Assembly: GCA_019448385.1 (NCBI GenBank)
Contig: JAGTXO010000003.1
Coordinates: forward strand, 682,001 to 746,000
DNA from: Diacronema lutheri
Taxonomy: Eukaryota; Haptophyta; Pavlovophyceae; Pavlovales; Pavlovaceae
Length of the DNA stretch: 64,000 nt
Direction of reading: 5' to 3'
In this document: in pieces, positions 5,875 through 52,607 of the stretch
Layout: every line of letters starts with the position of its first letter
Position numbering within the stretch: position 1 is the stretch's first letter
Notes under the pieces: generated by a model
Seen by the model: only the letters and a program-made list of their open reading frames with translations
The model's database searches: none
Told to the model about the DNA's origin: nothing
Position numbers and translations under genes: made by a program

Positions 5875-5907
5875 CCTTCCAACTTTAGAATCTGGGCGGC
5901 CGCGGGC

Positions 5908-30913: not shown

Positions 30914-30936
30914 GAACGCCGAGTCGACATCGCGTC

Positions 30937-31341
30937 GTATAGATGGTCAAGCCAAATCCGATCAGGGGCACGATCGCGCCCCGAGTGCAGCGCGGGCCGT
31001 TCGGAAGGACGTCCTTGTGAGGGAGCTCTTCGCGTTTGGCGAGCGGGGGAGCACGACGCGCAGCGTTGCTGCGGCGGCGTGCGGGCGGCGAGCAGCGGTC
31101 GGGCTGCTCGCGACGAGGCCGGAGCAGACGGCGCCGTGGCCGCCGGCGCAGGTGACGCGCGCCGACGAGCCGTAGCGAGCGTCCGTGATCCGCACGGCGG
31201 TTGGAGCGGGCCGGCTGGTGCGGCGCGCTCGGCCACGGGTGGCGGCGTGCACGGTCGTGCCGCGCGCGGCACGCGTCGCCAGCCGCGCGCGACCTGGGCA
31301 GAGCCCGCAAAGCGTCGACCGCTGCGCGGCTCGGCCGTGCG
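30937..31341 (-). other. Element 3' noncoding region, candidate guide-RNA scaffold, copy 2
   Basis: Counterpart of 5470-5874 and apparently identical to it over the readable stretch. Past the element end the flank differs (GACGCGATGTCGACTCGG reading outward on the minus strand from 30936), so if a TnpB-like guide RNA is made here its guide would differ from that of copy 1. Confidence 0.45.
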
Positions 31342-34300
31342 TCAACGCCGGCCGCGCTTCGGCCCGCGCGCGCTGCCGCCGCCGGCACTGGCGCTGGCAG
31401 CTCCGCGGGCGGGGGTGCGGGCGCGAGAGCCGCCGCCGCCACCGCCGCCGCGCCCGCCGCCGTCGTCGCCACCGCCGTCGCCGCCGCCGCCTCCCCCGCC
31501 GTCATCGTCGTCGTCGCCGCCGCCGCCTCCGTCGCCGTCGCCGTCGCCGTCGCCCTCGCCGCCGCCGCCGTCGCCGCTGCCATCGTCGTCGTCGTCGTCG
31601 TCGCCCTCGTCGTCGCCCTCGTCGTCGCCGTCGCACTCGTCGTCGCAGTCGTCGCCCTCGCCGTGCACCATGCGCTCCTCACGCTCCCACACCTCGCCGC
31701 GCGCCCACCAGGCGAGCACGAGGGCAAAGCGCTCAGGCGTCGACGTGGTGTCGCGCCCGGCCGCGTGCGCCGCCATGTCGTGCACGTCGTAGAAGATGTT
31801 GCGCGCGGCGTTGTAGTCGCGGTGCACGGGCTTCTTGCCGCCGTTGCACGCCGGGCAGATGACGAGCGCGTGCACCGTGCGCGTGCCGCCCTTTGCCACG
31901 GGCAGGCGCGGGTTCTGCGCGAGCTCCGCGCCGCAGCGCTGCAGCCTGCCGCCCTTGGCGAGCCGCGGCATCGAGCAGTGCATCGACGTGTACGGCTCGG
32001 GCACGAAGACGGCCGCGACGCCGCGCCGCCGCAGCTCGCGCAGCAGCCCCACCTGGAAGGCGGGCGGCGCGCCCTTGGGCTGCGCGCCCTTGTGGTCGCG
32101 CAGCCACTTGCCCACGCACACGAGCAGCCGGTCGCGCGTCACGCCGTCGACACAGTGCGCCGCGATGAGCGCCTCGGCGACGCGCGCCGCGTTGGACCGC
32201 CCGCCGCTGTCGCGCCGCCAGCGCTCCTTCCGGCGCGCCGGCGCGTCGTACACGTGCTCGGCGGCGCGCTCGCGCACCCGCGCGCTCTCGCGGTGGAAGG
32301 CGATGTATTTGCCCGCGTCGAGCACCTTGGCGCTGTGCGCCTCGCCAAGCCGCGCCTCGTCCGCCTCCACGCTGAACTCCTCGCCGCGCCCGTCGGTGCG
32401 CACGCGCCGCCGCGCCGCGTTGGTCTTGGCCGTCTCGCGCGCAAAGCCCGCGGCGCGCGCGCGCGCGCGCTGCGTGAACTGCCGCCAGACGGCCGCCCGC
32501 CCGACGTGCGCAGAGTAGGTGGTGATGTTGCCCATGTTCGGGTCGGCCGCGACGACGACCGCCGCCTCGACGTCGATCGCCCGCCGCAGCTCGGAGCCGA
32601 GCGCGACGGCGATGCGCCCGTCCGGCCGGCGCCAGCGGTGCAGGACGCCCGAGCCGCCGGCCGGCGCCTGCGCCTTCGGCACGAGGACGGTCCCGACGGC
32701 GTGCACGGCGACGCCATCTGTCACCACCGACTTGACGGGCTGCCGGCCCGGAAGCGGCACGCGCGGCAGCGGCGCGAGGCCAACCCACGAGCGCCGCGCG
32801 TGCCACGGCAGATCGGCCGGCGGCCGCTCGCGCCCGGCGTAGTCGAAGACGCGGTTGGAGATGTCGAAGCGCGTCGCAAAGACCGCGTACCTGACGCGCA
32901 CGTCCGACATCGGCGGGGTGTTGCCGTTTGTGCCTGTCCACCTGATCGGCTCACCATCGTGGTCGCGCAGGTCCAGCGCCTTGAGCCGCGCGCGCAGCTC
33001 CTTGCGCTCGTCGTCCGGGAGCGTCTCCCAGATGGCGTTCGCGGTGAGGCGCACGTTGCGCGGCACCTGCGCGCAGCGCGCGGCATGCGAGCGCGCGGGC
33101 GCGTGACCAACCTGGCCGCGGGGCGGCGCGCACGGCGGCGGCGCGCGCGCTTGGGCGCTCGGCGGCGGCAGCGGCAGCCGCGCCTCGCGCGCACATTGTG
33201 CGTGCGCAGTGGCGCCACATTGTACCGCGGCGGCCGGTCGGTGAGCTGCGTGTACAGGCGCGCGAGCCGGCAGAGCAGCGCCTGCCCCTCGGCCACGTGC
33301 TGCAGGTTGCGGATCTGCACGAGGAAGTAGCGCGTCGTGTGCCGGTCGTAGTTCCACCTATCCGTGGGCGCGCACTTGTAGTCGACCTCGTGGAGGACCA
33401 TGTCGGGCAGGTGGCGGTCGAGCGCGGCGGGGCAGCCGACGCGCGCGCCCTCCACGTCGCCGCGCAGCAGCCGCTCGCACAGCTCGCGCACGCGCACGTT
33501 TCGCTGCATCTCGGGCAGCGCGACGAGCGCCTCGTCGCGCTCGACTGCCGCGCGGACGACGTCGCGGAGCAGCCCGTTCACGACGCGCGATGGGTGCATC
33601 AGGCACGCGGTGGACACCTGCGTCGCCTCCTCCCTGAGGATCTCCGTGAGGCCCACCGCGCAGACGGGCTGGACGCCCTCGGCCATCTCGCCGACGGCGC
33701 GCGCCGTCGCCGCCTTGGTCTGCGCGGCGGCTTGCTCGGCGGGCTTGCCTCGGGGCGCTGCACCGTACCTGCTCTCGTCCTTGTGCCAGCCGATGGCCGA
33801 GAAGATCGCACGGACGGTTCCCTTGTCCATCGTGGTCGACGTGTGCACGCTGGTCGACGGGCCGCCCGACGCCGCGCCGACGGCCTGCGCGCTCGCCACC
33901 GCAGCCTCGTCGCGCACCACCTTGTTGATGACGCGGTACGCCTGTGTCGTGAGCCTGTGCACGGCCGCCGCGATGCGCCGCAGCTCCGTCCGCGCACCGG
34001 GCTGCGCCGTCACCGCCTGCGGCCCCGCGTTGAGCGTCGAGCGCTTGACCACGAAGCCCGGGAGCACGCTGCCGCGCGTGCGCGCCGTCGCGCCGCCGGC
34101 GGCGCGCGCGCTCGGCGCAGCGGGCTCGTCCACGCGCGCGCGCTCGACGCCGCGCGCGCGGCTAACGCTCGGCGCGCGCGCGCCCGCGGCGTCGCGCGCG
34201 CTCGCGGCGGCACCCGCCGCGGCGCGCTCGCCCGCGGCGCCCGACACGCCGTGCGCGCGAAGCGGCGCCGACGCCAATGCCGACGCCGCGCCCGCGCCGC

Positions 34301-37300
34301 CGCTGCCGCTGCCCGATCCGCCCGCGCGCCGCTTCTGCTCGTCGCGCGTCTTGCGGAACTGGGCGACGAGGTCGCTGCTCACGTTGGCCTCAGGCTCCCA
34401 CGTGTCGGCGCTCTCGTCGTAGCCCCGCCACCTGATCCGGAACTGGAACGTCACCCTCTTGCCCGCCTTGCGGCGCTCGTCGACGACCGCCTCGACCTCG
34501 TACGTGCGCGCCTCCTCGTCGACGCTCGCGCCCGCCGCGCTCGCGCCCGTGTCCGGCCACCCAGCGACCGTGCCGCCCAGCCTCTCGGCGGCCGCGCGCA
34601 GCTGCCGCTCGCGCTGGGCGGCCGCGGCGCCTCGCGCGACCAGCGCGGGCAGCATGCCCGCGCCGCCCGCGAGGCCGTGCGCGCCGACGCTGGCGGTCAT
34701 CAGCGCGTCGAGGCACGCGAACGTTGCGAGCGCACACGCGCCATCGTCGCCGCCGCGCGGCTGCGAGCGCACGACGGGCGATGGCCGCGGCTCCCCCTCG
34801 GCCGCGAGCAGCGGCCAGATCGCACTGGCCAGCGCGACGGCATGCGCGCCGACCGCGACGGCCACGTCCGCGTCGAGCGGCGCAAAGTCGTAGCGCACGA
34901 GCGCGGCCGGGCGCGAGTCGTCCGTCGGCCGGTCGGCGACGAGCAGCCCGACCGGGCGCGGCGGCTCGCCGGACGGCGCGGCGACGGGCACGCAGAGGAG
35001 CACGACGAGCAGGCGCGGCGTGCCGCCGAGCAGCGCGCGCGCGGCATCCGCCCCGTCGGCTCCGCCGCGCGCGGCCGCGGCGAGCAGCTCGGCCGCGCGC
35101 GTCGGGCCCAGCGCCGTGCGCGCGTCCTTGCGCGCGCGTGCGCGGGCCGTGTACGCGGCGCAGGCGTCGTCGAGCACCGCCGCGCTGGGCGCGGTGCCAG
35201 TCGTCGCCCACGCGCGCAGCGCGTCGCGCACCCGCGTGACGATCGCCTGGTCGACCGCCGCCTCGCCGGCAGCGTGCGCCGGCGCGCACGCCGGCGGTGC
35301 GGCGGCAGGCGCGAGCGCGGGCGCGCCGTCGGCGCCGTCAACGCCGACGGCGCCGTCGGCGCGCCGCCACGCGAGCTTCGCCTCGATCTGCTGCCGGACG
35401 GCGTGGCAGTGCCGGTCGATGCCGCGCGCGTCGTCGAGCGCGGCCAGCGCGTCCTCAGCGGCGGGACGGCCGCTCGCGTCCGCGACGGCCTGCAGGCAGA
35501 GCAGCGCGGCCGCACGCGCGTTGCACGCGCTCTGCGGCTCGGGCGCGAGCGCGAGCTCGAGCTCGAGCGGCGACGCGCCTCGCGCCGCGGCGATCGCGTC
35601 CATCAGCACGTCCAACCGCTGCACCAGCGCCCTGTGCGCGTCGCGCGGCGCGCCCGTCGACGGCGCGCGCGAGCGCGTCGCCAGGAGCCCGAGCGCGCGC
35701 GCCGGCGCGCCCGCCGGCGTGTGCAGCACGAGCAGCGCCGCGCCCGCCAAGCTCGCGTTGCGCGTGACGAGCGCGAAGATGCGCGTCGCCTCGTGCGCGC
35801 CCACCGACGCCCAGATCGCAGCGCGATCGGCGTCCGTCTGCGCGTCGCACAGGTCGCGCACGTCGTCCGGCGCGAGCAGCGCGCCGCCGCCGGCGGAGCG
35901 CGCGACGATCGCCCGCGCCTCCGCCACGAAGACGGCCTGCGGCAGGTCGGCGTGGCGCGCGTCGACGATGGCGCGCGTCGCGTGCACGCCGAGCTCCACG
36001 CCGCGGTAGAAGGCGCGCGCGTTGGCCGCGCGCGCGTGCGCCGGCCGTCCGTCCGCGTTGCGCCTCGCGCGCGCCTGCTTGCTCGTGCGCGCGAGGCCGT
36101 CGCGTGGCGGTGGCGGCAGCGTGGCGAGGAAGCGCGCGGCGGGCGGCGGCGCGCGCACGCCGCGCTGCCGCCGTGCGATGGCCGCGAGCCGCCGGCCCGC
36201 CGCGCTGCCGCCCGCGCCGACGTGCTGCCAGCGGTTGAGCGCCGCCGGTGGCGGCGGCGGCGGCGGCGCGGCGGCGGGCGGCGGCGCGACGGCGGGCGGC
36301 GGCGCGGCGGCGGGCGGCGGCGCGGCGGTGGGCGGCGGCGCGGCGGCGGGCGGCAGCGGCGGCGGCGCGGCGGCGACGGCAGCACCAGTCGGCTTGTCCG
36401 CCCACGCACCCGAGACGCTGTCCCAGGCCTTGCCCGGTGGCGCGCGCCCACGCGGCCGCGGGTGGCGGGCTCGAGCGGCGGGGGGCGGGCGGCCGGCGCG
36501 CCAGTCGAAGACAGGTGCAACCGTGGCGGCAGGCGCCGAGTGCAGCGCGTCGGTCACAGAGCGCGTGGTGCGCGCGGCGACCGTGGCGCGCATGGCGGGC
36601 GGGCGGTGAGCAGCGCCCGCCGGCGCGCCGGCGGGCGCGGCAGCCGGCGCGCCGGCGGGCGCGGCCGCCTCGAGCCCGGCGGAGGCGCCGCGCTTGCGCT
36701 TGCGCGTGCCGCCGCGCGTGCGCCTGCGCGCGCGCCCGCCGCGCGCCCGTGCGGCCTGCGCGTCGCCAGCCGCGTCGCCGGCCGCGTCGCCGCGCCGCAC
36801 GTAGACGATCGCGAACGCCTCCTCGCCGGTCCCGTCGACGCCGCCGCGCGCGCGGCGTAGGACCGACCGCCACTGCAGCCGCCGCGCGCGGCCGGGCTCG
36901 CACGCAAACCAGCGCCCACCGCGCCTGACGACGGCCACAAAGTCGTCGTCGCGCCGCCCGCGCCGGCGCGTGCGCAGCAGCACGCACTGCACGTCGAGCC
37001 AGCCCTCGTGCCAGTCGGCCGTGCTGGGGGCGACGCGAATCGACTGCGGGAGCTCGACGCCAAAGCCGGCGAGCCGCACGATGTGCGCGACGATGACGCT
37101 CGAAATGGCGGGGGCGCTCGACGGGTCGTCCGCTGCAGCGAGCACCGCCCCGCCCCAGTGCTCACGCGTGACGCAATCCGCGTCCTCGACGTGCACGTGC
37201 GCCACGCTCGCGCCGAGCTGGTGCAGCAACGCGCAGATGTCGGCGTCGACCGTCCTCTCCTCCTCGGCCGCCTCGGCCGTGCCGCGGGCGGCGGCGTCGC

Positions 37301-40300
37301 CTGCCGGCTGCCCGAGGTACGCGATCGCCCGCTCGACGGCCGCGCGCTCCGCACGCGCTGCGCTGTCGATCGCCGCATTGCCGACGGGCGCGCGCAGCGC
37401 CGCGATCGCGTCTTGCAACGCCGTCGCGTCGCCCGTCGCCGCCGTCGCCGCCACCGCCGCCGCGCTCGCGGTGCCGTGCGCGACGGCGTGCAGCGCGGCG
37501 GCGCGCGCGGCGGGGATGCGCCCGTCCAGCGCGAGCACGAGCGGCGGCCCGGCCGGCGTCTGCTGCCGCCGGTGCCGCCGGCTCGCAGCCGGGTGGTCGG
37601 CGCGCGCGCGCTCGAGCCGCGCGCGCCGCTCGACGACGCGCGCCCAGAAGGCCTGCACCCTCGGCTGCGCGAATGCAAGCCAGCCGACGCCGCGCGTCAC
37701 GACGTGCACGACGATCCGGTCCTCGTGCCTGAGGTACTGCACGTAGAGCGCTTTGCGCACGCCGAGGACGTGCATGCCGAGCTGCAGCTGATCGCGGTGC
37801 GGCTGCGGCGGCCCGTCCTCGTGCGCCTTGGCGTCCGCCTTGGTGAGCGTCTTCACCTCGACGAGGACCTGCTCGTTGTCTTCGGGGAGGATGGCGAGCC
37901 CGTCCGGCGAGAAGGCGAACGGCGCGCTCTTGTCGTGCGGGTCCGCACGCACCATCGGCAGGTTGCACACGACGGTGATGCCGTACGCGGCCGCCAGCTT
38001 GCGCAGCGCGACGGCCTCGCCGAGGATGCCCGCGGTCGTCGCCTTGGTCCGCACCTCGCGCCGCCGCCGGTGCACGTACTCGTCGGTGAGCGTCTCGTGC
38101 GCGACGCCGGCGTTGTCGTTCACGACGTCGCCAACCTTGCTGCCCGTGACCTCCTCCCATCGCTCGTCGTGCCAGCGCGGGCTGCGCTGCGCGGGCGCGC
38201 CCGCGCCGACGGCGTCGAGCACGCGGCGCAGCGCTGTGCCGTCGGGCGCAGCAGGCACGCGCGCGCGGTCCTGGGCCTCGCGAGCGTCGAGGACGCAGCC
38301 CGTAGTGGAATCTTGGGGTAGGTCGAGCTTGCTCGCCTCGCCGTAGCGGCTCTCCAGCTGGCGCGGTGCGTCGGCAGGGCCGCCGTCCGTGCGCGCACCC
38401 GACGCGCCCGCCAGTGCACGGGGCGCAGCGTCCGAGGCGCCCGCCGCGCCCGCGCCGCCGCCAATCGCGCCAGCGCACGCGCGCGCCGCGACCTGCGGAC
38501 GGCCAGCCGCAGGGACCTCGTCCGCTCGGCCGGCCGCTGCGTCGGCCGTCCGCTTGGCCACCTCGCGCACGTCTCCGAGCGCGAGCGTGGCTGGCGCCGT
38601 CGAGCTCCCGTGGCGTTTGTTCCAAAACTCGAGCAGCCCGCCAAGGAAGGGCGTGCCCGTCGGGCGGTCCTCGGGCACCTCCGCCAGGATCGCGTCGACG
38701 CGCAGCGCGGCCGCCACATCGCAAAACGCGCGCGCGGCGCGCGCCATCCGCTCGGCGCGCGCGCCGCCGTCGTCCGCCGCGCGGCGGATGGCGTGGCTCA
38801 CGTGCGCGACGCGGAGCGAGACGACGGCGTGCGCCGGCGCGTCGGCGCCCGTGCCGAGCGTGTGCCGCCGGATGGCCAGCTGCCCATCGCCCATGCGCGG
38901 CGGGAGCGACGCGCACGCCGCGACGGTCGTCTTGCCGGCCGCGCTGTCGCACAGCCAGCTCGCCTCGCCGCCGCCCGCAAACTCAAAGGTCGCGAAGCCC
39001 TCGCGGCCGAAAAGCGCGACGAAGTGGTCGAGCACCGCCTTGTTGATCGCGCGCGCCGCCGGCCGCGTCGATGCGCCGCGGGCAGCGCCACCCGCCGCGC
39101 CGCGCGCATCGCTGCACGTCGCAGGGCAGGTGCAGCCGGACGCGCGCACGCCGTCCGACCGCGTCCGCGGCAGCTCGAGCTCGCGCACCTTGGGGCAGAA
39201 CCAGAGCGGGTTGGACGCCTCGAGGCACAGCACGACGAGCCGCCCGTCCGTGCCGGCCAGCGCGCGCGCGTCGCGCAGCAGCTCGACGGCGAGCTCGGAC
39301 GTCGCCGCGTGCACCGCCGGCTCGCCCGTCGCGCGGTCGGGCGGGAAGAGGCCGCCGCCGACGAGCGGGCTGGGGCAGCGGCCGAGCATCACGAGCAGCG
39401 GCGGCGGCGGCGTCTGCGGCGCCTGCTGCCCGACCGCAGCCGCCGTCAGCCCGGCCAGGTCGGAGCTCGTGCGGAGGGCCTTGAGCGCGACGCGCGAGCC
39501 GGTGCCCGCCTGCTCGGAAAACGTGGCGAGCATGGCGCACGTGCTCGCCCTCGCGCCGCACTGCCAGCTGACGCGCGCGAGGAGGCCTTCCAGCGTGTCG
39601 TTTTCGCGCGGCCGCGTGACCGCGTCGAGCGCCGCCGGGCCGAGCTGGAGGCTGCCGGGCGTGACGCACAGCACCGCCTCGTGGTAGGCGCGCAGCAGCT
39701 CCCTCGGCAGCTGCTCGGCGGGCGTCGCCGCCTGCCCGCCCACCCACCGTGCACCGTGGCCGCCGTCGCCCGCGCCCGCGAGCCGGACCGCCGGCCCGCC
39801 CGTGATCGCCGAGGTCGGTGGCGTGCCGAGCGCGTCGACGAGCGCGCGCACGGGCGCGACACGCCTGCGCGCAGCGTCCGCGCCGACGGCGAGCGCGGCG
39901 ATCTGAGCGCCCTCCCATGCGCGCTCCCTCGCGTCGTCCCGCGCGGCCGCCGGCGCGGCGCCCGGCCGCGCGCCGTGCGGCACCGCGCACGCCGCCGCGA
40001 CGACCTCCGCGCGCGCGCCGGCGGCGTCGGGCGCGTGCAGCTGCGCGAGCGCGCCAAAGAGCGCGGCGGCCGAGCGGTAGCGGCCGTGCGCCGCGACGAG
40101 CGCGTAGAGCACGCGCAGCGCGGCCACGCCCGCCTGGTCGGGCGCGTCGCCAGCGATTTGCTCGACCTCCCACGTGCGCGTGGGCGGCGGGCTGCCGTCA
40201 GCCGGGTCCGGACGCAGCGCCCACGCGCGCTCGACGATCGCGTTGAACACGCCGTGCGCGGCGCCCTCGTCAAACTCGGCGGCGCCCGCCGCGTGCGCGC

Positions 40301-41888
40301 ACCACCCGTGCACGCGCGACGTGGGCGCGTCCACGGCGCGCTGCACGACGAGCACCGCCGGCCGGTCGACGCAGCCGAGGCTCACCGCCGCGTGCTTGCC
40401 CTCGAGCAGCGCCGCCGCCGCAGCCTCGACCAAGGCGTCATCAGGCGCGTCGCCGACGACGACGGCACAGCCGTCGCCGTACTCGGCCTGCATCGCGGCG
40501 ACGCACGACGCGACAAAGTCGCCGCCCGCGGCCGCCGCGTGTCGCGCCGCCAGCATCCGGCGCGCGATGGCAAGCCAGACGTACTCGGCCGGCGCGCGCG
40601 CGGCGCGCGCGCGAGGCGCGCCGGCCGCGCCGCGTGCGCCCGCGCGTGCGCCTCCAGCGGCCGCAACGGCCGAGGCGGCTGGAGCGGCGGTGAGCGTGCG
40701 CCGCGCGCGCTTCGCCGGCCGCGTGATGGGCGATGCACCCGCCGTCGCACCGCCCGCAGCAGCCGGTGCGGCCGCCACAGCGCCCGCCGCGACGCCACTC
40801 GTCACGACGCCCGTGGCGGGCGGCGCGGCGGCGGACGTGGCCGCCTCGACGGGCGTCGCGCAACTACCGCCAGCGGTCGCGGACGCGCCCGGCGACGCGT
40901 CGGCGAGGAGGTGGCGCAGCACGCCGCGCGCGAGCGCGACTCGCACGGCGAGCGTCAGCGCGCGCAGGCGGTCGGAAGGCGAGGCGTCGCGCTCGGCGTC
41001 GGCGGACGTGGCGGCAGCAGGCGGGGCGGCGGGCGGCGCGGCGGCGGACCGGGCGGCCGCCGGCGCAACCTCGTCGGCCTTGGCCAGCCAGACGAGCCCG
41101 GCGACTGCGAGCACGACGCTGTACGCGCCGACATCGTCACCCGCAACGCGCGCCAGCCGGGCGTGGGCGTCGGCCTCGGACACGGCGACGCGGAAGAGCA
41201 CGTCGTCGCGGGCAGCTTGCTCGGCAAACTGACGCAGCTGCTTGGCCATCGTCACGCCGGCGACGCACGCCTCGCCCGCCTCTGCCTCGACCTGCTCGTC
41301 CTGGCCGATGGCGGACGCGCCGGCCTCGGCGCCACCGTCGAGTGTCCGGCGGCGCTCGAGGGCGAAGCCACGCACACAGACGCTCTGGAGGCCGCCGAGC
41401 GCGCCCGCCTTCTCGTGCAGCGCGCACGACAGCTCGACCACCGAGTCCACGCGCCTCGCGGCGGCGCCCCCCCGCTCGCCGCGCGTGGCCGCGCGCACGA
41501 CGAACACCGTGAATTGCGCGCGCTTCGCCGCGCGCGCCGACGCGCACGCGTGCTTCAGGAGCCGGCAAAGCGCGGGCCTTTGCGCCGCTGCGCCCCGCGT
41601 GCACAGCAGCAGTTGGCCGCGCTCGTCGCCCAGCTCCTGCTCGACGGCGGCCTCGAGCGCGTCGTCCGTCAAATCGCCGTGCTCCGTCGAGGCGAGCGCG
41701 CGCGCAGCCGCGAGCGCCAGCTCGCCTGCGCCCGCGCGCCGCCGGCGGCGCGCACCGGCGGGCGCGTGCGGCGCCGACGCGTGTGACGACGCCGCCGCGT
41801 CCGCGCGCGCACACGCGGCGCGCAACGCCTCACGCGCCGAGGCGGCCGCGCGCGCCCTGGGCGCGAGCTTCAAGAACGTGCGCGCGGC

Positions 41889-41931
<43 letters not shown>

Positions 41932-44900
41932 TCGCCCTCGTCGCCGGCACGCGGCGGCGGTGGCGGCGGTGGCGGCGCGGCCACGGCGGCGGCAGCAGCG
42001 GCAGCGGCGGTGGTGGTGGCGGCGGCGGCGCCCAGCGCGGGCGGCGGAGGTGGCGGCGGCGGCGGAACGGCGGCAGCGGCGGCGGCGTCTGCGGCGGCCT
42101 TGGCGCCGCGCGTCTGCCGCGGCGCTTCGGCAGCGCGATCGCGGCTGCCCCCGCCGCGCACCGCGCCCGCCCCGGCGCAGGCGCCGCTCGGCGCACGCCC
42201 GCTGACCGCGCCAGTCAACGCGACGCGGAGGTGCTCGCCAACAGCGTACATGTCCGCCACGCTGAACGTGCGCGGCGCGGATGCACCGCCCGCCGCAGCG
42301 AGCGCGGCGTCGTTGAGCGCGCCCACCACGGCGAGGCCGCACGTCGCGCCACGCTGCGCCGCGTTGTCGAGCAGCCGCGCGCGGCGCACGGGCAAGACGT
42401 CGAGGCCCGCCGCGTGCAGCGTGGCGGTTATCGACCTGGCACGCTTGAGCGCCTGCCTGCTCGGCGACGCGAGCGTGTCGACAAGCACCGCGTCGTAGCG
42501 ATGCTCGCCCGCGCGCGCGACGCGCACGAGGCGCAACGCGGTGAAATGGCCGGAGGCGGGCGGCGTGCCATCGTCACTGCCCGCACCGCCGCGCCCGCCC
42601 GGCGGGCTCCACATGCCGATGACCGCCTGCGTCGTCGCCTCGCTGTGCAGGCGGTGCAGCAGCGCGGCGCGCTCGGCGCCGTCCTGGAACACCGCGGGCT
42701 GAGCGGCAAGCGGTACGTGGCAGACGCGCCCTTCGCCGGCCTGCCCGTGCACGCGCAGCACGACCTCGCAGCAAGCGTCCACAGTGGAGGCGAGCATGTC
42801 GCCGCCCGCAATGCAGTCCACCTCTGCCTGCGGGATGCCGGCGCGCGCGGCGGCATCGGCCAGCCGGAGCGCAGCCGCGTCGCCCGCCCACGCGAGCAGC
42901 GCCGGGGCGGCGGACTGGACGTCGCGCTGCGCCACGGCGGGCTCGGCCGCGGCGGGCTGGGCAGCGGCTGGCTCGGCAGCGGCGGGCTGGGCGGGGGCTG
43001 GCGCGGCGGCGGTGGGCTCGGCGGCCGACGATTGCGTGGCAGGCTGCGGCGCGGCCAAGGCGGCGGTCGGGCGGGCGGCGGAGGCGAAGGCGGCCCATGC
43101 GGCGGCCGAGCACACGGCGACGAGCCAAAAGGCGGTGGCTGCAGACGGGCGAGCGGCCGGAGCAATGGCGGCCCGGACGGCAGAGGCGGCGACGACACTC
43201 GCGAAGATGCCGACGGCGCACCGGACAGTGGCGACGGCGACGGCGGCACCGGCACACGGGCGGCGGTGGGGGCTGTCGGGCTCGGCGGCAGGCTCGGCGG
43301 CATGCTCGGCCGAGGGCCGATCGGTGCGCGACGGCGGGCTGCGACTCGCGCGGCGGAGCGGCTGCGGTGCGTGCTGGCCGCCCGTCGCGCACCTGCGCTT
43401 GCGCTCGCGGCGCGCGTCGCCGCCACGCAATCGGCGGCCGACAGCCCGCTCTGACCTGTCGATTGATCTCCGCAGCCGGTCGCGCGCGCGCTTTGCCGCC
43501 CGCCGTGCGCGCCGCGGCGGTGCGCGCGGGCACTGGTCGGGCGAGCTGCGCGCGGCAGGCTCGCAGCAGCCGCCGTCGCGTGCGTGCGCGCAGCCTCGGT
43601 CGCACGGCGCGCAAACGAGGTCGTCGGCGCCATCGACGCCGTCGAGGCCGTCGCCGCGCGCTGCGGCTGCGAGCGCGCGTGCCACGCCGTCGTCGCCGGC
43701 CGCCGGCGCCGCTGCGGCGGCCGCGGCGTCGGCTGCACGGCGCTCGGGCTGCGGCTCGAGCGGCGGGACGGCGCCGGCCGCCGCGGGCGGCGCCGTGTCG
43801 AGCGGAGCAGCCGCGGCGCGCGCGCGCGCGCGCGCACCCTTTGCGCCTACCGCGAGACGCCACCCGCGCGGGCGCCACGCGCGCCGCGGCTCGGCGGCCG
43901 CGCGACCGGCGGTGCCGGGCGTGGCGGCGAGCGCAGCGCTCGAACTTGCGTCTGGCTCGGTGGCGGCGAGCCGGCGCAGTTGCCGCGCAATGCAGGGCTG
44001 CACGTCGAGGTGCGCCTCGTCGAGTCGCGAGAGGAGCTCGCGCGCGCGAGTGCCGAGCGCGGCGCCGTCGCACTCGGCACGCGCGCCCGCCGGAGCCACC
44101 GAGCCTTCGGGGTCGCGCGGCGCGAGCAGCTCGCGCGCAGTCGCGAGCAGCTCCGCCTGCTCGGCGGTGGGGATGCAGGCGCGGCGCAGCGCGAGCTCTG
44201 TGTGCGCGGGCAGGTGGGCGCCCACGGCCTCGGCGTGCATGAGTAGCGCGCGCGCCTCCGCAGGTGCGTCCGCCTCGCCCATCTCGGACGCGGCGAGCAC
44301 GCCCGCCGCCTCAGCGGCGAGCGCGAGCCGCGGCGACGCGAGGTCGCGCAGCGACCGCAGCAGGTGCGGAGGCAGCGCGTGGCCACGCGCCTTGACGCGC
44401 TCGAGCAGGGCGCGCGCGCGCGCTGCATCGTCCGCAGAGCCCAGCGCGCACTGCTCGATCAGGCGGCCGGCCGCGCGCTTGTCCTCGCGAAAAAGCTGCT
44501 CGCGGTGGAGCGCGCGGCGGGTCTCGCGCTTGGCGAGCGCGTCGGCACGCGCCCTGCAGCCCTCGTCGGCGGCGGCGGCGAGCTCGGCAACGCCGCCAGG
44601 CTCGGTGGCGGCGGCAAGCGTGGCGGCGACGGCGCCTACCTCAGCGGCAGCAATGCGGTCGTCAGCGCGCTTGGCGGCAGCGCATTTGACGGCGGGCTGG
44701 TCGGCTGGCTTGGCGTCAGGCACGGTGGGAGGCTGGGCCGTGGACTGGGCGGCGGGCTCGGCGGTGGGCTTGGCAGCGGCTGGCTTGGCGGCGGGCTCGG
44801 CGGCGGGCTGGGCGGCGGGCTGGGCGGCGGCGGGCTCGGTGGCGGGCACGTCCGCCTCGGCCAACAAGAGCGGCTCGAAGCGGTTGCTCGCGCGCATGCT

Positions 44901-46555
44901 GGCGCGCGGATGGCTCGGCGGCAGAGCAGCGGGCCGAACGCCAGCGCCCGCGCCGAGGCCTGGCCGCGCTGGCTGCCAGGGCTGCTCGCGCTGCTCGCGC
45001 TGCTCGCGCTGCACGCGCTGCACGCGCTGCTCGCGCTGCTCGCGCTGCTCGCGCTGCTCGCGCTGCTCGCGCTGCTCGCGCTGCTCGCGCTGCTCGCGCT
45101 GCTCGCGCTGCTCGTGCTGCGGGCACCACGTGCGCTTGCGCCAGTTGTGCTGCGCATCCCCGCCCTCCGCTGCCGGCTCAAAATTTGCGCATGCCCAGAT
45201 TTGGCCGCGCCCAACAATTGGCGTGCGCTGGTCCTGCGCGCGGCCGGCGGGCAAGAGGTCGGGCGGGCGGGAGGCGTAGGGGATGCGTGAGGGTGCTGCA
45301 CGCTATACGCGCAAACTTTACCTGGCGCGAACGCAAGCGCCGGGCGCCACGCTGTGGACAGCGGACGGCGTGCGCGTGCGAGGCACTCACCGCCATTGGC
45401 AATGCGCGCGTCGCGGAGACAACTTGGCGGGCCTCGCACGCAGCTGGGCCGATCGCCGCCGCAGAGGTGTCTGCAGCCGTCTCCGCGATGCCGATCGTCG
45501 CATCTGTTGGCACCGCTGCCATCTGCCGCACCCGCGACCAGGCTGCCGACAGGGTCGGCGCGTCGGGCGCCGAGCTCGGCCACGCAGGCGATGCGGCCGA
45601 CGGCGGTGACGCTGAGCCCAGCGCCGGGTCCAACGGTTCCGCGTCGAGCCGGCTGTAGAAGAGCATGCTCGCACCACTTGCCCACGCCAGCGCGTCGGAC
45701 TGAGACAAGTTGTGCATCTGCGCGGGCAACGCGCGTGCGTGCGGCAGGCGCGCGGCGCGAGCTTTCAGGCCACGCGCGCGTGCCGCGCGGGAGGACGGGG
45801 CGGCTGCGGCTGCGATCAACCGCCGGTCGCGGCGCCAAGCGGCCGTGCGCGCCGCCGCACGTTGTCGTCGTCGCACAGAAACCAAGCCCCGTTGCGGAGC
45901 ACGATGGCGACAAGGTGCCCGCTCGTCGACTCCTCGCCCAAGTGCACGACGGCGGCGACGAGGAGGTAGTCGCGCCCGCCGAGTAGCAGCCGCGGCGCGC
46001 ACACGAACGCGTGCTTGTTCTTGCACTGCGAGCCATTGCCGCGCGTCGTGCGCGGCACCTCGACGGCAATGCTGGCTGGCATGAGCACGTCCGAGCGGCA
46101 CGCGTCCGGGCTGCCACCCTGCGGCGGCCCAGCGACGCCCCCCAGAGCGTGTGCGAGCGTGCGCGCCGCATCGCCGCCAATGCTGACGAGGATGGCGATG
46201 CCCTCACCGCGCTCGCTCGAGGCCACAGCGATCGGCTCGAGCACTACGCGTCTGTCGTCTTCGAAGGCAGCAGCGAGCCCGGGCACTCGGCCGAGTAGCA
46301 TCTGGAAGAACTCAGCAGCGTCCTGCTGCGTCCCTCGCGTGCCACGGCCCAAGATGACGTCGACGACGGACACAAGACACAGCTGTGCCGGCGCCTCGGT
46401 GTCCTCGAGCAGCGTGCCAAAGTCCCGAAAAAGCGCCTTCTCGACTCTTCCCGCACGGCGCGAAGCGGAGCGGGGCATCGGACGGAGCACGTTCAAGGCG
46501 ACGAGCGATTGCGCGAGGGCGTTCACGTAGCACGCGTTGCCCTCGTTTTTCACGC
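31342..46555 (-). CDS. Giant multidomain protein: USP - Ulp1-like - YqaJ - chromodomain - Fanzor
   Basis: Predicted exons 46555-45861, 45717-45322, 45233-33195 and 33066-31342; all three introns (143, 88, 128 bp) are GT...CAG and phase 0, giving about 4,950 residues after an unplaced first exon. Order: USP protease (GNACYVNA with Cys at 46532-46530, TQQDAAEFF, His at 45917-45915, DDDN, ASMLFYSR); an EQR array; Ulp1-like protease (His 42548-42546, Asp 42479-42477, Gln-x4-Cys with Cys 42341-42339); poly-Pro/Ala linkers; YqaJ-type PD-(D/E)XK nuclease at about 38200-37700 (RWHDERWEEVTGS, SPDGL, LVEVKT, QLQLGMHVLG); a USP-like second half with a degenerate His box at 37250-36800; chromodomain at 34512-34340; Fanzor from about 34070 to the stop, RuvC Asp 32544-32542, Glu 31998-31996, Asp 31818-31816, Asp/Gly tail and basic end. 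It may be a processed polyprotein or several genes; transcripts decide. Confidence 0.7.
44989..45121 (-). repeat. 9-bp tandem repeat encoding Glu-Gln-Arg
   Basis: About 14 copies of CTGCTCGCG (EQR on the coding strand), with a few CACGCG variants (VQR), lie directly after the third exon start of the giant gene. It would form a long charged helix. Confidence 0.9.
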
Positions 46556-48479
46556 CTGCGCCGCGCCGCGCAGCGCCGGGTGTGCGGGGTGCGCACGCAA
46601 GGTTTACGGCGGGTCGGAGAGAGGCCGACTGGGAACGCGCCGAACCCGGCGAGCCGTGCAGGCGCTCACCACGCGGCACGTCGGGCACTCTCACCGGCCA
46701 CATCGGGCCGATGAACGCGCCCCCCACAGGCTGCCGGCCGACGACTCGGAAGTTGCTCCAGGCGCTGCGCCGTGCACGCGTCATGCGCGCGCTGTTGCGG
46801 GCTACGCAGCAGAAACGACGGGGGAATAGGCGAGCGAGGGTTGGGCGCAGATCAGCGTGGTGGCGCGGCAAGACGAGCGCGCGCCGGGCGCCTGGCGCGG
46901 AGGCGCCCCGCGCGAGGACGCGAGCCGCTTCTCGCACCGGACGGGCGCCCACGCGCAAACCGGCTTTAGAGGGCCAGATGGATGGTGGCCGATGACGAAT
47001 CAGCGCGGCACCCGCCTTTGAAAAAGGGCGTCGCGGCACTGCCCGAAAGCGGTACGGACGAGCCGGGCGCCATGCATGGAACGATGCGACGGCGGCGTGA
47101 GCGCGGGACGATCTTGCCCAGGCAATTGTGCGCGTTCAGCGGGCGGCGCGCGCGTTGCGCGTGACGGGGCGCCGAGCGGCACACCGGCGGGGACCCGCTC
47201 GCCGCTGCCGTGGCATCCTCCGCTGCCGGCGTGCTGGCACGCACGCGCATTGCCGGCGCGAGGGGACGGCGAGTGCGCCTCGGCCGAACAGGCGCGAACG
47301 TTACGCCCGAGCGCGTGGCCGAGCACCGGATGGAAGCATGCTTCGTCATGCGGCGGCGACCCGCGCCGATTGCACGCAGCGCCGGCCTAGGCGCGCATCC
47401 GCCCGACGCGGATTTGGACGACGCGTCGACCGGCACGCCGAGCGTCTGCGTCTGCCTCGCGGCCGGTCGCGCCGGCCCCTCTTCGGCTCGCGGCCGCACG
47501 TGCGCCGCGCGCCGCTTCGGCGCGCGGCGCGGCGCGCCTGGAACGCGCGGAACATACGCGCGGTGCGCGGGCACGCCCGCAACGCGCCATTTTAGCGCGA
47601 GCAGTTCGGCAAGCTTGCAGCTCGCGAGCAGCCGGGCATGTGCCGCGGACACACAGTTCGCTGTGTGCGCCGGCCGCGACGACACGGCGTAGCGGCGCGA
47701 GGCTGGCGGCCGGGGCCACGGGCGTAATCGTGGCGCGACGCCATGGCATGAGTAATAAATCCATGAGTAATAAATCACGGGCCCAAGCTCACGCGCTGTA
47801 CGGCCTCTCCCGCATGGCGTGCCAGGACCGCATTTTCGCTCGGCCACGCAGCGGACCACGGCGCGTTGTGCGCGCCCGGCGCGAGTGGTGCGAGTGGCGG
47901 GCCAAGCCGCGTCGCCCACGGAGCCCGCCCCCGGCTCGGCGGCACCGCTACCGCTTGCTCGCCGGGCCGCGCACCGCCGTCGCCGCCGCTGCGCGCTTGC
48001 CCTGCTTGCCGGCAGGCGGCGGCGGCGGCGGCGGCTGAGGTTGCGGCAGCGGCGCGAGCGCGACGCCGGACGGCGGCAGCGCCGACGGCACGCGCGCGGC
48101 GGCGACCCACGCGGCGTCGGGCAGCGCGCCGGCTTGAGGCCCCTGCTTGCCGGCCGCATTGGCGCCGCCCTGCGCGCCCTAGAAGGGCGCGCAGGTACGC
48201 GGGCCAGTCGCGCGGCGCGCGGTGTTGGCGAGCACCCGCCGGCTGCGTGTCGGCCGCGAGCGGCGCGACGGGCGTCGCGCCGGCGGGTGCTGGGCAGCAC
48301 CGCGCGCCGGCGTCGCGCCCGCCGCCAGCGCGCCGCCCGCCGCCGGCGCCGCGCGCGCCGTCCGAGCCGCGCCCGCCGCGCCCGCCGCCACCGCGCGCCG
48401 CCGCCGCGCATTCGCGCGCGGCGGCGACGGCGGCCGCGGCGAATGCCGCCGCCGCCGCCGCCGCCTCGCCACCGCTGAC
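46556..48479 (-). other. Region between helicase core and USP exon: possible 5' exons
   Basis: The reverse strand holds several open stretches with protein-like composition, for example CKLAELLALKWRVAGVPAHRAY near 47600-47550 and FFKGGCRADSSSATIHLAL ending near 46966, but no family match. The acceptor GCGCAG at 46556-46561 shows that an exon must lie upstream of the USP exon. Near 47745-47780 a 16-bp motif (CATGAGTAATAAATC) is tandemly duplicated. Around 48000-48480 the frame is Ala/Gly/Arg low-complexity, a tail of the helicase or a linker. I cannot resolve whether helicase and USP belong to one gene. Confidence 0.4.
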
Positions 48480-50034
48480 CGCGCGGAGCACCTCTTTGAA
48501 GACGACGGTGCGCGTCACATGGTCCGGGCCAAGCGCAAAGCGGATGCGCGACGCGTGCCCGACGCGCGAAGCGGCCACGTAGAGCTGGCCGTGCGTGAAG
48601 CACGGCTCGGCGAGCCACACGCCCGCGCACCCGAGCGCTTGACCCTGCGCCTTGTTACGCCGGCCGCACCGGGAACTGGCGGTGCAGCCATGCAAACGCG
48701 AACGTGCCCTCGTCGGGCGAGTGGTGGTCGATGCGCGCGATGAGCACGGTGCTGTCGCGCCCGGCGGCCGCGCCGGGTCGCGCGCACTCGAGCAGCCGGC
48801 CGCCGGCGCGCACGCCGCGCACGACCAGCCGCGTGCCGCTGCACAGCCCCTCGCCGAGCGAGAGGAGGCGAGTGGCTACGAGCTCCGCCGGGTAGGCCGA
48901 GACGCCTCGGGCAGCTGCACGGGATCGAGCGGGAATGCGCCGAGCATGGCCCCCGCAGGCGGCACCGCCGCGGGAAAGGCGCCGTCGCCGAGGCTGCGCG
49001 GCAGCTTCGCCCACTCGCCCGCGCCGAGCGCGTCGCCCGTGTCGCGCGCCGCGTTCGAGGCGCGAGAGTTCTCGACCAAGGCGTACGGCCGATCGTGCTG
49101 CCACGATGCCGAGTACTCGAGGCAGGAGCGCACGATCTGCGCGCGCGAGCCGCGCCGCACCACCGGCAAGCACTGGCAAAAGTCGCCGGCGAGCAGCAAC
49201 GTCTTGCCGCCGAAGCGCTCGTCGACGCCCGTCACGTCGCGCAAACACCGATCGAGCGAGTCGAGGCGGCCCCGCTTCTGCATCGGCGCCTCGTCCCCCA
49301 CGATCATTCGCCGCGGCGGCCACGGAGCGCCCGCGCTCGGAGCGCGGCACGCCATTGAACGGCTTGCCCGTCCGAGTCGGCGCCGACGGGCACCTTGAAG
49401 GTCGAGTGGAAGGTGCGGCCGTCGGGCAGCAGCGTGGCGGCGACGCCCGAGGACGCGCACACGACGACCGCGTGCCCATCCGCGCGCACGGCGGCGATGA
49501 TGGCGCGCTCGACGAACGTCTTGCCCGTGCCGCCCGGCGCGTCGCAAAAGTGCAGCCGGTCGCCCACGCCGCGCAGCGCCGAGTCGACGACCGCGCCGTG
49601 GAGCGCGCGCTGCTGGCCGGTCTCGGCCATCGCCGCGCGCGCCGCCGCCGCGCTCGCAGCCTGCTCGGCGCGATCGTAGCCCTGCGCGCGCGCGAGCTCG
49701 CGCCCGCCCGGCCCGGCCGGCGCGCGCGCCGTGCGCAGACCGGCCACCGCCGCGAGCGCCGCCGCGCGCTCGCGCTCGTCGGGCACGTACAGCCCCGTGG
49801 AGTCGAACGTGTCGGCCCAGGCGGCCACGCTGTACGAGGCGAAGGCGTCCGAGCCGGGCTGCGGCCGCTGCTCGGCGCGCTTCGGGAGCATGACCCCGCA
49901 CACGTTCCACTTGGTGCCAAACATCGAGCCCGTGAGCCCCGTGTAGACGCAGTCGAGCTGCGTGGCGATGGCGCAGACGTCCTCGTGCCGGATCTCGTCG
50001 ACCGGTTCGCCATCCGTGGCGTCCAGGATGGCGA
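48480..50034 (-). CDS. Pif1-family DNA helicase, frame-interrupted
   Basis: Pif1 superfamily 1B helicase motifs occur in the right order on the minus strand: Walker A (DAPGGTGKTF, near 49540-49510), ASSGVAATLLPDGRTFHS, Walker B region (VGDEAPMQKRGRLDSLDRCLRDV, near 49310-49235), GGKTLLLAGDFCQCLPV, LCSGTRLVVR, NKAQGQAL and the terminal THGQLYVAASRV (near 48600-48560). The first exon seems to start after a GCGCAG acceptor at 50035-50040. Motifs fall in three frames with at least two breaks that I cannot explain cleanly by introns, so it is either decayed or has unusual splicing. Pif1 helicases accompany several DNA transposon groups. No HUH Rep domain is found beside it. Confidence 0.65.
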
Positions 50035-50193
50035 CTGCGCCCGGGCCGTGACGCCGCGGCGTCGTTCGGCTGCGTCACGGAGGAGCGCCATCCGTGCGCC
50101 ACGGAGGAGCGGCAGGACCACGACGCGGCGTGACGCTGGACGACGCCATGCTGTCGAGGCGCCATGCTGTCGAGCCGCCATGCTCCGAGGCGC

Positions 50194-50279
50194 CGCCGCT
50201 TTCTAAAAGGGTGTAGGGTGTAGGGTGTAGGATGCAAACCAAGCCCTCCCCACATTTGGGCCCGACGTCATTCCTTCTT
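50194..50279 (+). repeat. Inverted repeat, left arm (86 bp)
   Basis: Pairs with 50423-50508 with one mismatch. It contains three tandem GTGTAGG-type units, telomere-like in appearance, then GATGCAAA and GGGCCCGACGTCATTCC. Confidence 0.95.
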
Positions 50280-50422
50280 TCGTCACAGCGTCATTCCTTC
50301 TCCCCCCTATGGGACTTTCATAACCGTACGTATCCTACACCCTACACTATGCAAATACCTAGAGAATAGATCCATCCTACACTAAGTAAAAGTACTCGTA
50401 TGTGAGTAACGTCACGGCTTCG
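50280..50422. other. AT-rich 143-bp spacer of the inverted repeat
   Basis: A notably AT-rich island in GC-rich surroundings. It contains further partial copies of the arm sequence (TCCTACACCCTACACTATGCAAA at 50332-50353 and CATCCTACACT near 50373) and a second GTCATTCCTTCT. No gene. Possible element terminus, origin-like region or bidirectional promoter. Confidence 0.5.
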
Positions 50423-50508
50423 AAGAAGGAATGACGTCGGGCCCAAATGTGGGGAGGGCTTGTTTTGCATCCTACACCCTACACCCTACACCCTTTTAGA
50501 AAGCGGCG
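50423..50508 (-). repeat. Inverted repeat, right arm (86 bp)
   Basis: Reverse complement of the left arm (one mismatch). Both arms point outward into poorly conserved sequence; short mirror-image open frames start in each. Confidence 0.95.
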
Positions 50509-50925
50509 CCGAAGGTGGGAGGATGCCACCCGTATGCGCGCGTTTGAACGTGCGCGGACGGCCGTTGGCTTCGCGCCCTTTCGCCCACGGTTTGCGCGCC
50601 AACGGACCAGTCCTCCGCGGGCGCCGCGCATCGTCTCAGGGGCGGTCGGTGTGGTACGCCGCGCGCATCGTCAGCGCCGCGGCGTCGAGCTCGGCGAGCG
50701 AGGGCGCGTACGTGACGCCGCTCAGCACCTCGTCCGCGCCCGCCCTCGTCGCGCTCGCCGCCTCCGCAGTGCGCGCAGGCGGCTTCGTGACGGCACGCGA
50801 GGCCACGCCGCGCGCCGCAGGTGCCTTCGCGCGCTGCATCGTCTGTCTGCCGGTCCGACGCGCTCTGCTCTGAACGAACGGACGGCACGCCCGACGAGAT
50901 CTCGTCGCGTGCACGCTCGCACAGC

Positions 50926-51450
50926 ATGTACCCCCAGAACGTCTCCGAGCTGCTGCCCGACGAGATCTTCGGCGACGAGCTGCTCGTCGACCGGCACTAC
51001 CGCGTGCGCATCCTTCAGCGCGTCGCCCGCCGCCGCGATGCGGCCGAGGCCAACTTTTGGCTCGACGGCGGGCCCGCCGACTCGGTCGTCGGCGCGTGCA
51101 TGTGCGGCCGAATCTACGCGCTCAAGTGCATGGGCCGGCTCGTCCGCGGCGCCCGGATCCTCGCGCTGCTGCGCAAAAATGTGGCGCTCGCCACGTGCCG
51201 CGCACACCTCATGGGCCACATGCTCCAGCGCATCGTCGGCGACAGCGGCGTCGCGCGGCTGCTGCAGCTGGTTGCAGCTCGTTCGCGAGGATCACGACAC
51301 GCTCAACGCCGAGCACCAGGCCTTGGAAGCACAGCATGACACCGGCCAAGTCATGCGACGGCATGTGCGCGCGCGCCGACGCGCTCTCCAAGGACCTCGC
51401 ACGGGCGCACGAGCACGCTCACAAGCTCGATGGCTATCTGGTGTAATGCA
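50926..51450 (+). CDS. Unrecognised protein, uncertain frame
   Basis: From ATG 50926 an open stretch reads MYPQNVSELLPDEIFGDELLVDRHYRVRILQRVARRRDA and continues with a helical, leucine-rich segment (MCGRIYALKCMGRLVRGARILALLRKN). A coiled-coil-like piece (LVREDHDTLNAEHQALEAQHD) follows in another frame near 51280-51345. No family is recognised. The frame change, with a short GCAGCT duplication at the switch, suggests a decayed gene or a misplaced exon. It starts just beyond the 50.2-50.5 kb inverted repeat and could belong to the same element or to another. Confidence 0.3.
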
Positions 51451-51758
51451 GCGAGCGCCTCCGTGAGAGTGACTCTTTCAACGGAGCGCTCGAGAACCTG
51501 AACACGCGGTGCAGCATGAGATGTGCTGGCTCCACGCCGAGATGTCGTCGCTCGTTGCGAGTTCGCCCGAGGCTTACGCGAACGACAGCGAGGCCACCGA
51601 CTTCAAGGACCACGGCGTGTGCGTCGAGTACGATGTCTTCAACCGCGACGGGGTCGAGGGCGCGCCCGTGCCCGCGACCGCGCCCACGAAGGCAGAGCCG
51701 GGCATCGAGTCCGAGTGCATCGCGCCCGCACAGGCAGAGCCGGGCAGCGAGTCCGAAG

Positions 51759-51791
<33 letters not shown>

Positions 51792-52509: not shown

Positions 52510-52607
52510 GACCGCCTTCGTTGCGGACATCCGGGGCGGAGGACCCGCCAGGCGGTTCACACACGGACATGCCAGACACACAATGCCGACATGTTGTGAG
52601 GAGTGCG

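Follow-up and report, generated by a model that had tools for sequence, protein, structure and literature searches.

The haptophyte alga Diacronema lutheri carries a mobile element in which a chromodomain and a probable Fanzor1 nuclease are encoded in the same open reading frame. We have analyzed a window of 64,000 nucleotides of its genome that contains two copies of this element, here called copies 1 and 2. The frame is interrupted by an intron, its catalytic and reader residues are intact, and the element is present at high copy number with asymmetric ends that have a TATACG core in common. The best explanation, to which we give somewhat better than even credence, is that the two domains form the nuclease-bearing C-terminal end of a giant frame, such that a methyl-histone-reader-type chromodomain and Fanzor1 are parts of one polypeptide, whose guide, targeting and repair steps would be as proposed below.

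A sequence-only reading of the window had taken positions 31,342 to 36,000 as the unit. This was not sustained; the real unit is an element of 21.6–31 kb that exists in short and long forms, with the following features.

30936..52510, minus strand: short form (21.6 kb) of the mobile element, copy 2, from alignment with five other copies and the junctions of sampled copies
1..5875, plus strand: mobile element, copy 1, 3′ part alone (5′ part outside the window), from 99% identity to copy 2 and the 3′ junction
32721..45302, minus strand: giant open frame of 4193 codons stop to stop, with exonuclease, chromodomain and Fanzor N-terminal part, from the ORF list
37767..38174, minus strand: RecE/YqaJ-type exonuclease domain (PF09588, E = 0.016, under the cut-off in the window copy)
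45816..47135, minus strand: ORF with ubiquitin carboxyl-terminal hydrolase domain (PF00443, E = 7.3e-15)
48876..50267, minus strand: ORF with a PIF1 helicase match, C-terminal half of the profile (PF05970, E = 2.7e-23)
49304..50074, minus strand: ORF in another frame (frameshift or intron) matching the N-terminal half of the PIF1 profile (PF05970, E = 6.5e-19)
30936..31341, minus strand: conserved non-coding 3′ end of 406 bp, candidate guide (omega/re) RNA region by position only

Copies 1 and 2 are 99% identical across 5,872 bp, and the genome contains at least 82 near-identical copies. Exon 2 of the nuclease has no internal stop in any of the 82 copies scored (455 first-look candidates). The element has multiplied recently in this haptophyte.

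The chromodomain and Fanzor lie at the C-terminus of a giant open frame that also includes a RecE/YqaJ-type exonuclease. The exonuclease is more clearly seen in the homologous frame of another copy (C9), where RecE-like phrog_434 matches with E = 1.3e-15. The idea of a stand-alone protein of two domains, with a frame starting near the chromodomain, is not supported, as the frame stays open for approximately 3,600 codons upstream, and for the same reason the functional protein may be a different one. A rival reading is a polyprotein, in which the chromodomain and Fanzor adjoin within the giant protein and are then separated by the ubiquitin-hydrolase-like or another protease of the element, leaving a finished nuclease that lacks the chromodomain. 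The longest forward frame is 4088–4504 codons, with the exonuclease, in all six copies compared, the hydrolase domain lies within the element and low-complexity linkers separate the domains, all of which favor such processing. However, Pfam scans recognized no viral-type processing protease, and a cleavage point exactly at the border of the two domains has to be assumed in addition. Ulp1-like protease modules seen by eye in the giant frame were dropped, since PF02902 (Ulp1-type) matches only nine stretches of the genome, far under the element copy number; this too counts against the polyprotein, which we regard as possible but on balance improbable. We do not claim that the region before the PIF1 helicase is similar to viral single-stranded DNA-binding proteins.

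The fusion itself comprises the following features.

34350..34502, minus strand: chromodomain, copy 2 (PF00385, E = 9.7e-12, score 45.1 bits, cut-off 25.1)
34071..34346, minus strand: linker rich in Gly, Ala, Ser and Arg with no Met, from frame and composition
33195..34070, minus strand: Fanzor N-terminal part, exon 1, its start judged by alignment with Fanzor families F2 and F3
33067..33194, minus strand: intron of copy 2, 128 bp, GT-AG, phase 0
31342..33066, minus strand: Fanzor catalytic part, exon 2, with TDG at ~32727, RuvC D at ~32544, rearranged E at ~31998, RD at ~31818 and a terminal acidic tail, from PF07282, motifs and alignments
2297..3616, plus strand: copy 1, chromodomain through the end of exon 1, from the copy 1 frame
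3617..3744, plus strand: copy 1, intron with three differences from copy 2, from the copy 1 frame
3745..5469, plus strand: copy 1, Fanzor exon 2, from the copy 1 frame

The earlier proposal of a single open frame running from chromodomain into Fanzor in both window copies is upheld by profile scores, by third-position GC content (GC3) and by the intron of P0006, an annotated host chimera from which the identical intron junction has been removed. The 128-bp phase-0 intron was also correctly placed, at equivalent positions in the two copies (33194-33067 and 3617-3744); family F4 reads through this place with no gap. In a profile search set beforehand as a possible refutation, the chromodomain and the Fanzor zinc domain both scored above the curated Pfam cut-offs. 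Openness of the frame alone is weak evidence, because the GC content is 75–80% and two long ORFs, of 1270 and 1154 aa, are present on the opposite strand as well. Stronger evidence comes from the profile scores, from the GC3 periodicity (0.93–0.98 in chromodomain, linker and Fanzor, a pattern absent from the intron) and from the removal of the P0006 intron. From the start of the chromodomain there is no ATG until codon +228, inside the Fanzor core, while in the alignment with the two other Fanzor families Fanzor begins near codon +148. The 801-bp stretch covering chromodomain, linker and Fanzor is full length with a net indel of zero in 40 of 40 copies scored (606 first-look candidates). Substitutions among copies are distributed approximately evenly over codon positions; these counts carry no selection signal, and no purifying selection is visible on the chromodomain, because the copies are too young. 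Between the short and long forms, upstream of the chromodomain only, there is a slight excess at third positions (42/44/60).

The chromodomain assignment extends beyond the window, with 46.7 bits to PF00385 in copy C9, and comparison with chromodomains in the PDB gave a best E of 1.7e-9. A tyrosine, a tryptophan and a second tyrosine align with HP1, and all three aromatic positions, which we take to be those of the HP1-type cage, are retained. The chromodomain might target the nuclease to chromatin. Alternatively, the fusion could be real and the chromodomain a passenger that does not guide the nuclease, serving the upstream parts or holding the protein near chromatin generally. It is known that proteins of mobile elements can carry a chromodomain as an accessory part, as in chromoviruses (PMC3605345) and the adintovirus integrase (PMC11071296), and the lack of a selection signal in the codon-position counts leans the same way. 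The retention of all three cage positions speaks against a passenger, and we think it unlikely.

The nuclease is probably a Fanzor1. Its zinc domain matches PF07282 (TnpB/Cas12f-like) in copy 2 with E = 1.9e-6 and 28.4 bits against a cut-off of 26.3; the NCBIfam model guided_TnpB gave only 13.6 against a cut-off of 100. The RuvC D/E/D residues and zinc-knuckle named in the sequence-only reading are confirmed by motif positions and by the family alignment. The Fanzor1 pattern is present, with a RuvC aspartate (DP, ~32544), EPYTSMHC (~31998) with its glutamate six residues ahead of the first cysteine, the C4 motif and HRD (~31818). A glutamate at that spacing and a TDG in the WED domain are marks of Fanzor1 in the part of the source consulted (PMC10711439). 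Exon 2 includes VVTDGV, and TDG is also found in F2 and F3, not in F4. Against the Fanzor1 assignment, the first RuvC motif is DPN and not DPG; DPG occupies this position in F2, F3, F4 and the relatives P0003-P0005. In the PDB, a profile of the four families matched TnpB/Cas12 only weakly (best E = 0.027), and the Cas12f/Csx1 matches in PADLOC were likewise weak (best E = 0.0063).

A protein search with the spliced chromodomain-Fanzor gave no matches (8,000 candidates scored). The catalytic half found only P0001, which is 97–98% identical and therefore adds no independent lineage, and the four-family profile reached P0002-P0005 and P0006. Metagenomic relatives exist, compared in the catalytic half alone. 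Scans of viral contigs gave no confirmed relative, and a genome contig scan gave none. No published chromodomain-Fanzor was found among the matches listed in open-licence literature; the suggestion that the fusion is not a described class agrees with the portions of that literature naming both Fanzor and chromodomain, which describe no fusion.

The 5′ end of copy 2 reads CTATATACG/GCGCGG (52510-52502) and its 3′ end ...GACCATCTATACG at 30936. Left ends have TATATACG in 29 of 30 cases (ends picked by the 5′ query), and right ends have CG in 28 of 29 readable (30 fetched). The left motif is off in three of five copies that were not picked by the 5′ query, by one base in C27 and strongly in C34 and C69. 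The ends are asymmetric, with the short TATACG core common to both. A joined-flank search for an empty site found none. At the 3′ end all 40 scored matches (283 candidates) begin with the first base of the 435-base query and reach base 410 or beyond, at 99–100%; this region matched no RNA family in Rfam, and its folding was not above that of shuffles (z = -1.13).

If the preferred reading, a chromodomain-Fanzor1 polypeptide at the end of the giant frame, is correct, the conserved 3′ non-coding end would supply the guide RNA, with the DNA adjoining each insertion as variable guide and the TATATACG-like left-border motif as the target-adjacent motif. The chromodomain would keep the nuclease on chromatin that bears its cognate mark and is most likely silenced. 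Where an allele is unoccupied, the break might then be resected and copied, aided by the RecE/YqaJ-type exonuclease and PIF1 helicase of the element, which would thereby be kept or copied by repair. Profile searches recognized no recombinase or transposase in the element, which we count against this explanation. It would provide a natural coupling of an RNA-guided nuclease to a histone-mark reader, of the kind that genome editors build by hand. A bolder version is a self-contained homing element, whose chromodomain-Fanzor locates vacant sites within marked chromatin and cuts them, and whose own exonuclease and helicase turn the break into a 31 kb copy. We consider this doubtful; if true, such an element would spread by guided breakage and repair and not by a classical transposase. 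Nuclease, exonuclease and helicase together fit break-and-copy spread, offering a route to asking why eukaryotic elements retain Fanzors. The element is young and abundant and its host alga culturable, so that it may be caught in action.

Least probable of all is a separate, chromodomain-free Fanzor made from an internal promoter, a non-ATG start or unseen splicing, the common frame being a by-product of stop-poor GC-rich sequence in which long frames come easily: two other Fanzor families of D. lutheri show no chromodomain in the DNA retrieved for them, and variant L093 without one still keeps a 987-codon frame, but the GC3 signature is unbroken across the linker, the first ATG comes only inside the Fanzor core, and the chromodomain match is strong, specific and in precisely this frame. 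The odds that we attach to these alternatives overlap and need not sum to one.

Cryptons and other tyrosine-recombinase elements generally have a short core at both ends. Our element may resemble them in lacking inverted repeats and in the core common to its ends; profile searches do not support this class, with only 16 genome matches to PF00589, none at element copy number, and a very divergent recombinase could be present. PIF1-type helicases are typical of Helitrons. A Helitron is not supported either, as the ends are CTATATACG.../...CTATACG and not 5′ TC/3′ CTRR, and the Rep/HUH profile PF14214 (Helitron_like_N) matches a single place in the whole genome and therefore none at element copy number; Rep might be divergent. 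The Chlamydomonas Helitron2 elements CRe-1, 2 and 3, as excerpted from PMC3627910, are likewise algal, with Fanzor1 and asymmetric ends, and differ in those termini. Fanzor1 of eukaryotic transposons and viruses, in the passages available (PMC3627910, PMC10432273, PMC10711439), has the same D...[TS][TS]xx-C4-RD motif, RuvC D/E/D with rearranged glutamate, TDG motif, and a gene at the right end of the element followed by a conserved non-coding end. Here, in contrast, a chromodomain lies in frame upstream, DPN replaces DPG, and the nuclease ends a giant open frame in a 21.6–31 kb element with no recognized transposase. Chromoviruses, which are Ty3/gypsy elements, carry a chromodomain on the integrase, as does the adintovirus integrase, in the sections consulted (PMC3605345, PMC11071296). 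Like these, our element joins a DNA enzyme of a mobile element or virus to a chromodomain in one polypeptide; unlike them, the enzyme is an RNA-guided nuclease by assignment, and the chromodomain is N-terminal to it.

In the window, two copies of the element carry the sequences of interest: a partial element on the plus strand (copy 1) and a 21.6 kb short form on the minus strand (copy 2). The sequence-only reading held that in both copies an open frame runs from a chromodomain into a Fanzor nuclease, interrupted by a phase-0 intron of 128 bp at the same place. This proved right in detail, and a profile check placed both domains above their cut-offs. The features are as follows.

32721-45302, minus strand: giant stop-to-stop frame of 4193 codons (ORF listing of the window)
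34502-34350, minus strand: chromodomain, residues 3601-3651 of the giant frame (PF00385, E 9.7e-12, 45.1 bits, cut-off 25.1)
31342-33357, minus strand: second ORF, containing the catalytic Fanzor part (PF07282, E 1.9e-6, 28.4 bits, cut-off 26.3)
33194-33067, minus strand: intron joining both ORFs, exactly 128 bp, GT...AG, phase 0 (sequence reading)
From 2297, plus strand: copy 1 chromodomain codons, with intron 3617-3744 and exon 2 from 3745, in the same arrangement as copy 2

Long frames are cheap in this sequence, whose GC content is 75-80% and whose antisense strand is open for 1270 and 1154 aa in two ORFs. Further support for coding was therefore sought. Read in the giant-ORF frame, the GC fractions of codon positions 1/2/3 are 0.62/0.46/0.98 for the chromodomain, 0.85/0.82/0.93 for the linker, 0.73/0.51/0.95 in the N-terminal part of the Fanzor and 0.75/0.55/0.96 in the exon 2 core. 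In contrast, the values are 0.79/0.88/0.90 for the intron and 0.79/0.80/0.68 for the 3' non-coding end. Upstream, the GC3 of the giant frame stays at 0.85-0.97 up to ~41.7 kb. Since the longest forward frame spans 4088-4504 codons in all six element copies compared, a giant frame has the chromodomain-Fanzor as its C-terminal end. The main rival to a working fusion is a polyprotein, from which the chromodomain and Fanzor parts would be separated after synthesis. A Fanzor started at an ATG without the chromodomain would miss its first conserved stretch, because the core begins at about codon +148 from the chromodomain start (SVLPGFVV, as placed by aligning it to two further Fanzor families from this genome), upstream of the first Met at codon +228.

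The intron is supported in several ways. Joining the exons restores continuity, and the Fanzor family F4 (37% identical) reads through this point without a gap. In the annotated D. lutheri protein P0006 (KFE25_006464), a piece of Fanzor sequence is spliced at precisely this junction; according to the available text of the genome paper, the annotation pipeline drew on RNA-seq (PMC8379373). Four metagenomic relatives, P0002-P0005 (39-46% identity), all have their predicted start at the opening codon of exon 2, and P0001 starts a few codons later. The starts of the four would fit intron-blind gene finders, which is weak evidence for the intron. The introns of the two copies differ at 3 positions. 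P0006, on contig C69, is a chimera: a properly spliced piece of Fanzor makes up roughly residues 1-105, and a SAM-domain protein comes after it. Host genes may thus acquire exons from the element.

A PDB search with the chromodomain matched 43 distinct sequences at E <=0.01, of which a chromodomain-Y-like protein scored best (E 1.7e-9); HP1 reached E 1.3e-7. In the alignment with HP1, Tyr, Trp and Tyr fall at what we take to be the aromatic cage positions. The Fanzor part has a RuvC Asp (ADPN), a Glu placed six positions ahead of the zinc finger's first Cys (EPYTSMHC), a set of four Cys, and HRD. A TDG motif, named as a mark of Fanzor1 in the accessible text of PMC10711439, is also found. The first RuvC motif is DPN in the window family and DPG in families F2, F3 and F4 and three relatives. 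The protein scores 13.6 against NCBIfam guided_TnpB, far below the cut-off of 100, and a four-family Fanzor profile matched TnpB/Cas12 structures in the PDB weakly (best E 0.027).

The genome searched comprises 103 contigs and 43,492,796 bases, and all copy counts are lower bounds, scoring having run from the best match downward. All 82 scored exon 2 matches (the best of 455 first-look candidates) are 99-100% identical and stop-free, and each of the 40 scored matches to the chromodomain-linker stretch covers its whole length, with zero net indel. The zinc-domain search gave at least 150 matches (306 candidates), 114 of those listed lying at the window-family score of 31.3-31.5 bits. Five other copies were aligned: the window copy is 99.4-99.5% identical to C27 and C5 over ~21.5 kb, and it shares 98% identity across the final 12 kb with three longer copies (C9, C34 and C69) of 30.5-31.1 kb. 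Substitutions are spread about evenly over codon positions (42/44/60 in the upstream part, short versus long form), and indels within the frame, where clustered, sum to multiples of three. Judged by this near-identity and evenness, the copies are young and selection is not readable from them. An older, broken copy (L097) keeps its chromodomain and contains stops.

Other domains include a PIF1 helicase in two frames of the window copy (E 2.7e-23 and 6.5e-19) and in C9 (E 1.8e-24, plus Pif1 2B), and a ubiquitin hydrolase domain (E 7.3e-15 and 4.3e-8, respectively). A RecE/YqaJ-type exonuclease is below cut-off in the window copy (Pfam YqaJ, E 0.016); C9 matches RecE-like phrog_434 at E 1.3e-15 and, below cut-off, a lambda-exonuclease family at E 1.4e-5. 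PF00589 and PF14214, found at 16 places and one place in the genome, are far too rare for domains of the element. A 98% inverted repeat with 89-bp arms lies at 50191-50279 and 50423-50511; because the long form has extra sequence at this site, a deletion may have given rise to the short form. Near the element 5' end, a gene-sized antisense frame on the plus strand (50133-52510, MYPQNVSELLPDE...) is common to both forms, and two plus-strand ORFs scanned there gave no Pfam match. Contigs C1, C6, C26 and C29 begin almost exactly at the element 3' end, with the 5' end ~31 kb in, probably reflecting assembly breaks at the repeat. Outside the element, a repeat search found a tandem array at 16730-17855 (period 62-70 bp, 14 overlapping copies).

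The genome also carries no fewer than two other Fanzor families (F2 and F3) and a third (F4). Ten of the 36 zinc-domain matches listed outside the window-family score were fetched, giving F2 at five loci (L089-L091, L094, L095), F3 at three (L092, L096, L098) and two variants of the window family (L093, chromodomain deleted; L097, chromodomain present). A small chromodomain profile found L097 at E 4e-28, its positive control being the window chromodomain, itself a member of that profile. Within the fetched DNA, past which the F2 frame in L089 extends, it found none in eight loci (best E 14, filters off) and none in L098. Long extensions of low complexity precede F2 and F3 at the N-terminus, and a chromodomain could lie still farther upstream there. 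F4, the closest family to the window Fanzor, was seen once (L094:2087-5068); its upstream part appears to be cut by an F2 copy, and it stands in head-to-head orientation with one F2 copy.

In the open-licence literature searched, three papers contain both 'Fanzor' and 'chromodomain', at unrelated points and not as a fusion in the text accessible; further listings (best 20 of 166, 15 of 17 and 30 of 133) contained no such fusion, and 'Fanzor' with 'Pif1' gave nothing in the literature searched. By word search, chromodomain is absent from the available text of Bao and Jurka, PMC10711439, PMC10432273 and PMC11423790; 'chromo' occurs once in the first and twice in PMC10432273, unrelated to chromodomains in the text shown, and in neither of the other two. 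The string 'transpos' is absent from the available main text of the D. lutheri NIVA-4/92 genome paper (PMC8379373). Since most subscription literature lies outside this search, the novelty of the fusion is provisional.

The left end reads TATATACG directly followed by GCGCGG in 29 of 30 stretches, with L057 (AATACACG) alone departing from it; these were picked by a query starting at the C of that motif, a selection that favors it. Among five copies not so chosen, the window copy and C9 match, C27 is one base off, and C34 and C69 differ strongly; no left end was found for C5. The right end reads CTATACG in 28 of 29 readable stretches (30 fetched, L046 unreadable), L040 having A; among seven additional copies the G is present in four and missing from C5, C27 and copy 1. 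The element ends showed no inverted repeats, a single joined-flank search revealed no empty site, and a 13-bp repeat lies on both sides of copy C9a. A short repeat with AAGCGYCGT occurs in six sampled flanks (L036, L038, L051, L053, L055, L058), and the final ~36 bases of the L036 flank recur at 39 or more other places; the repeat is perhaps a favored target site or the end of a different element. The left flank of L062 (C28:71557-71616) carries GGCGCGGTCCAGGCC...GCCATC ahead of CTATATACG, as though both ends of a different element had left a remnant next to the copy.

In the model we propose, the chromodomain would hold the nuclease on marked chromatin, cuts at unoccupied alleles would be repaired from an element copy, and the element's exonuclease and helicase would assist that repair. 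The anatomy alone of this model is demonstrated. In described Fanzor systems the guide comes from the element right end and flank, and a motif is needed at the left (PMC10432273, PMC10711439, in the text available). Here, 406 bp of non-coding sequence at the right end, folding no better than chance, are conserved in the 40 scored copies and run into a variable flank, while the sampled copies are almost uniform in their left border motif. This geometry fits a putative guide RNA together with an adjacent motif resembling TATACG.
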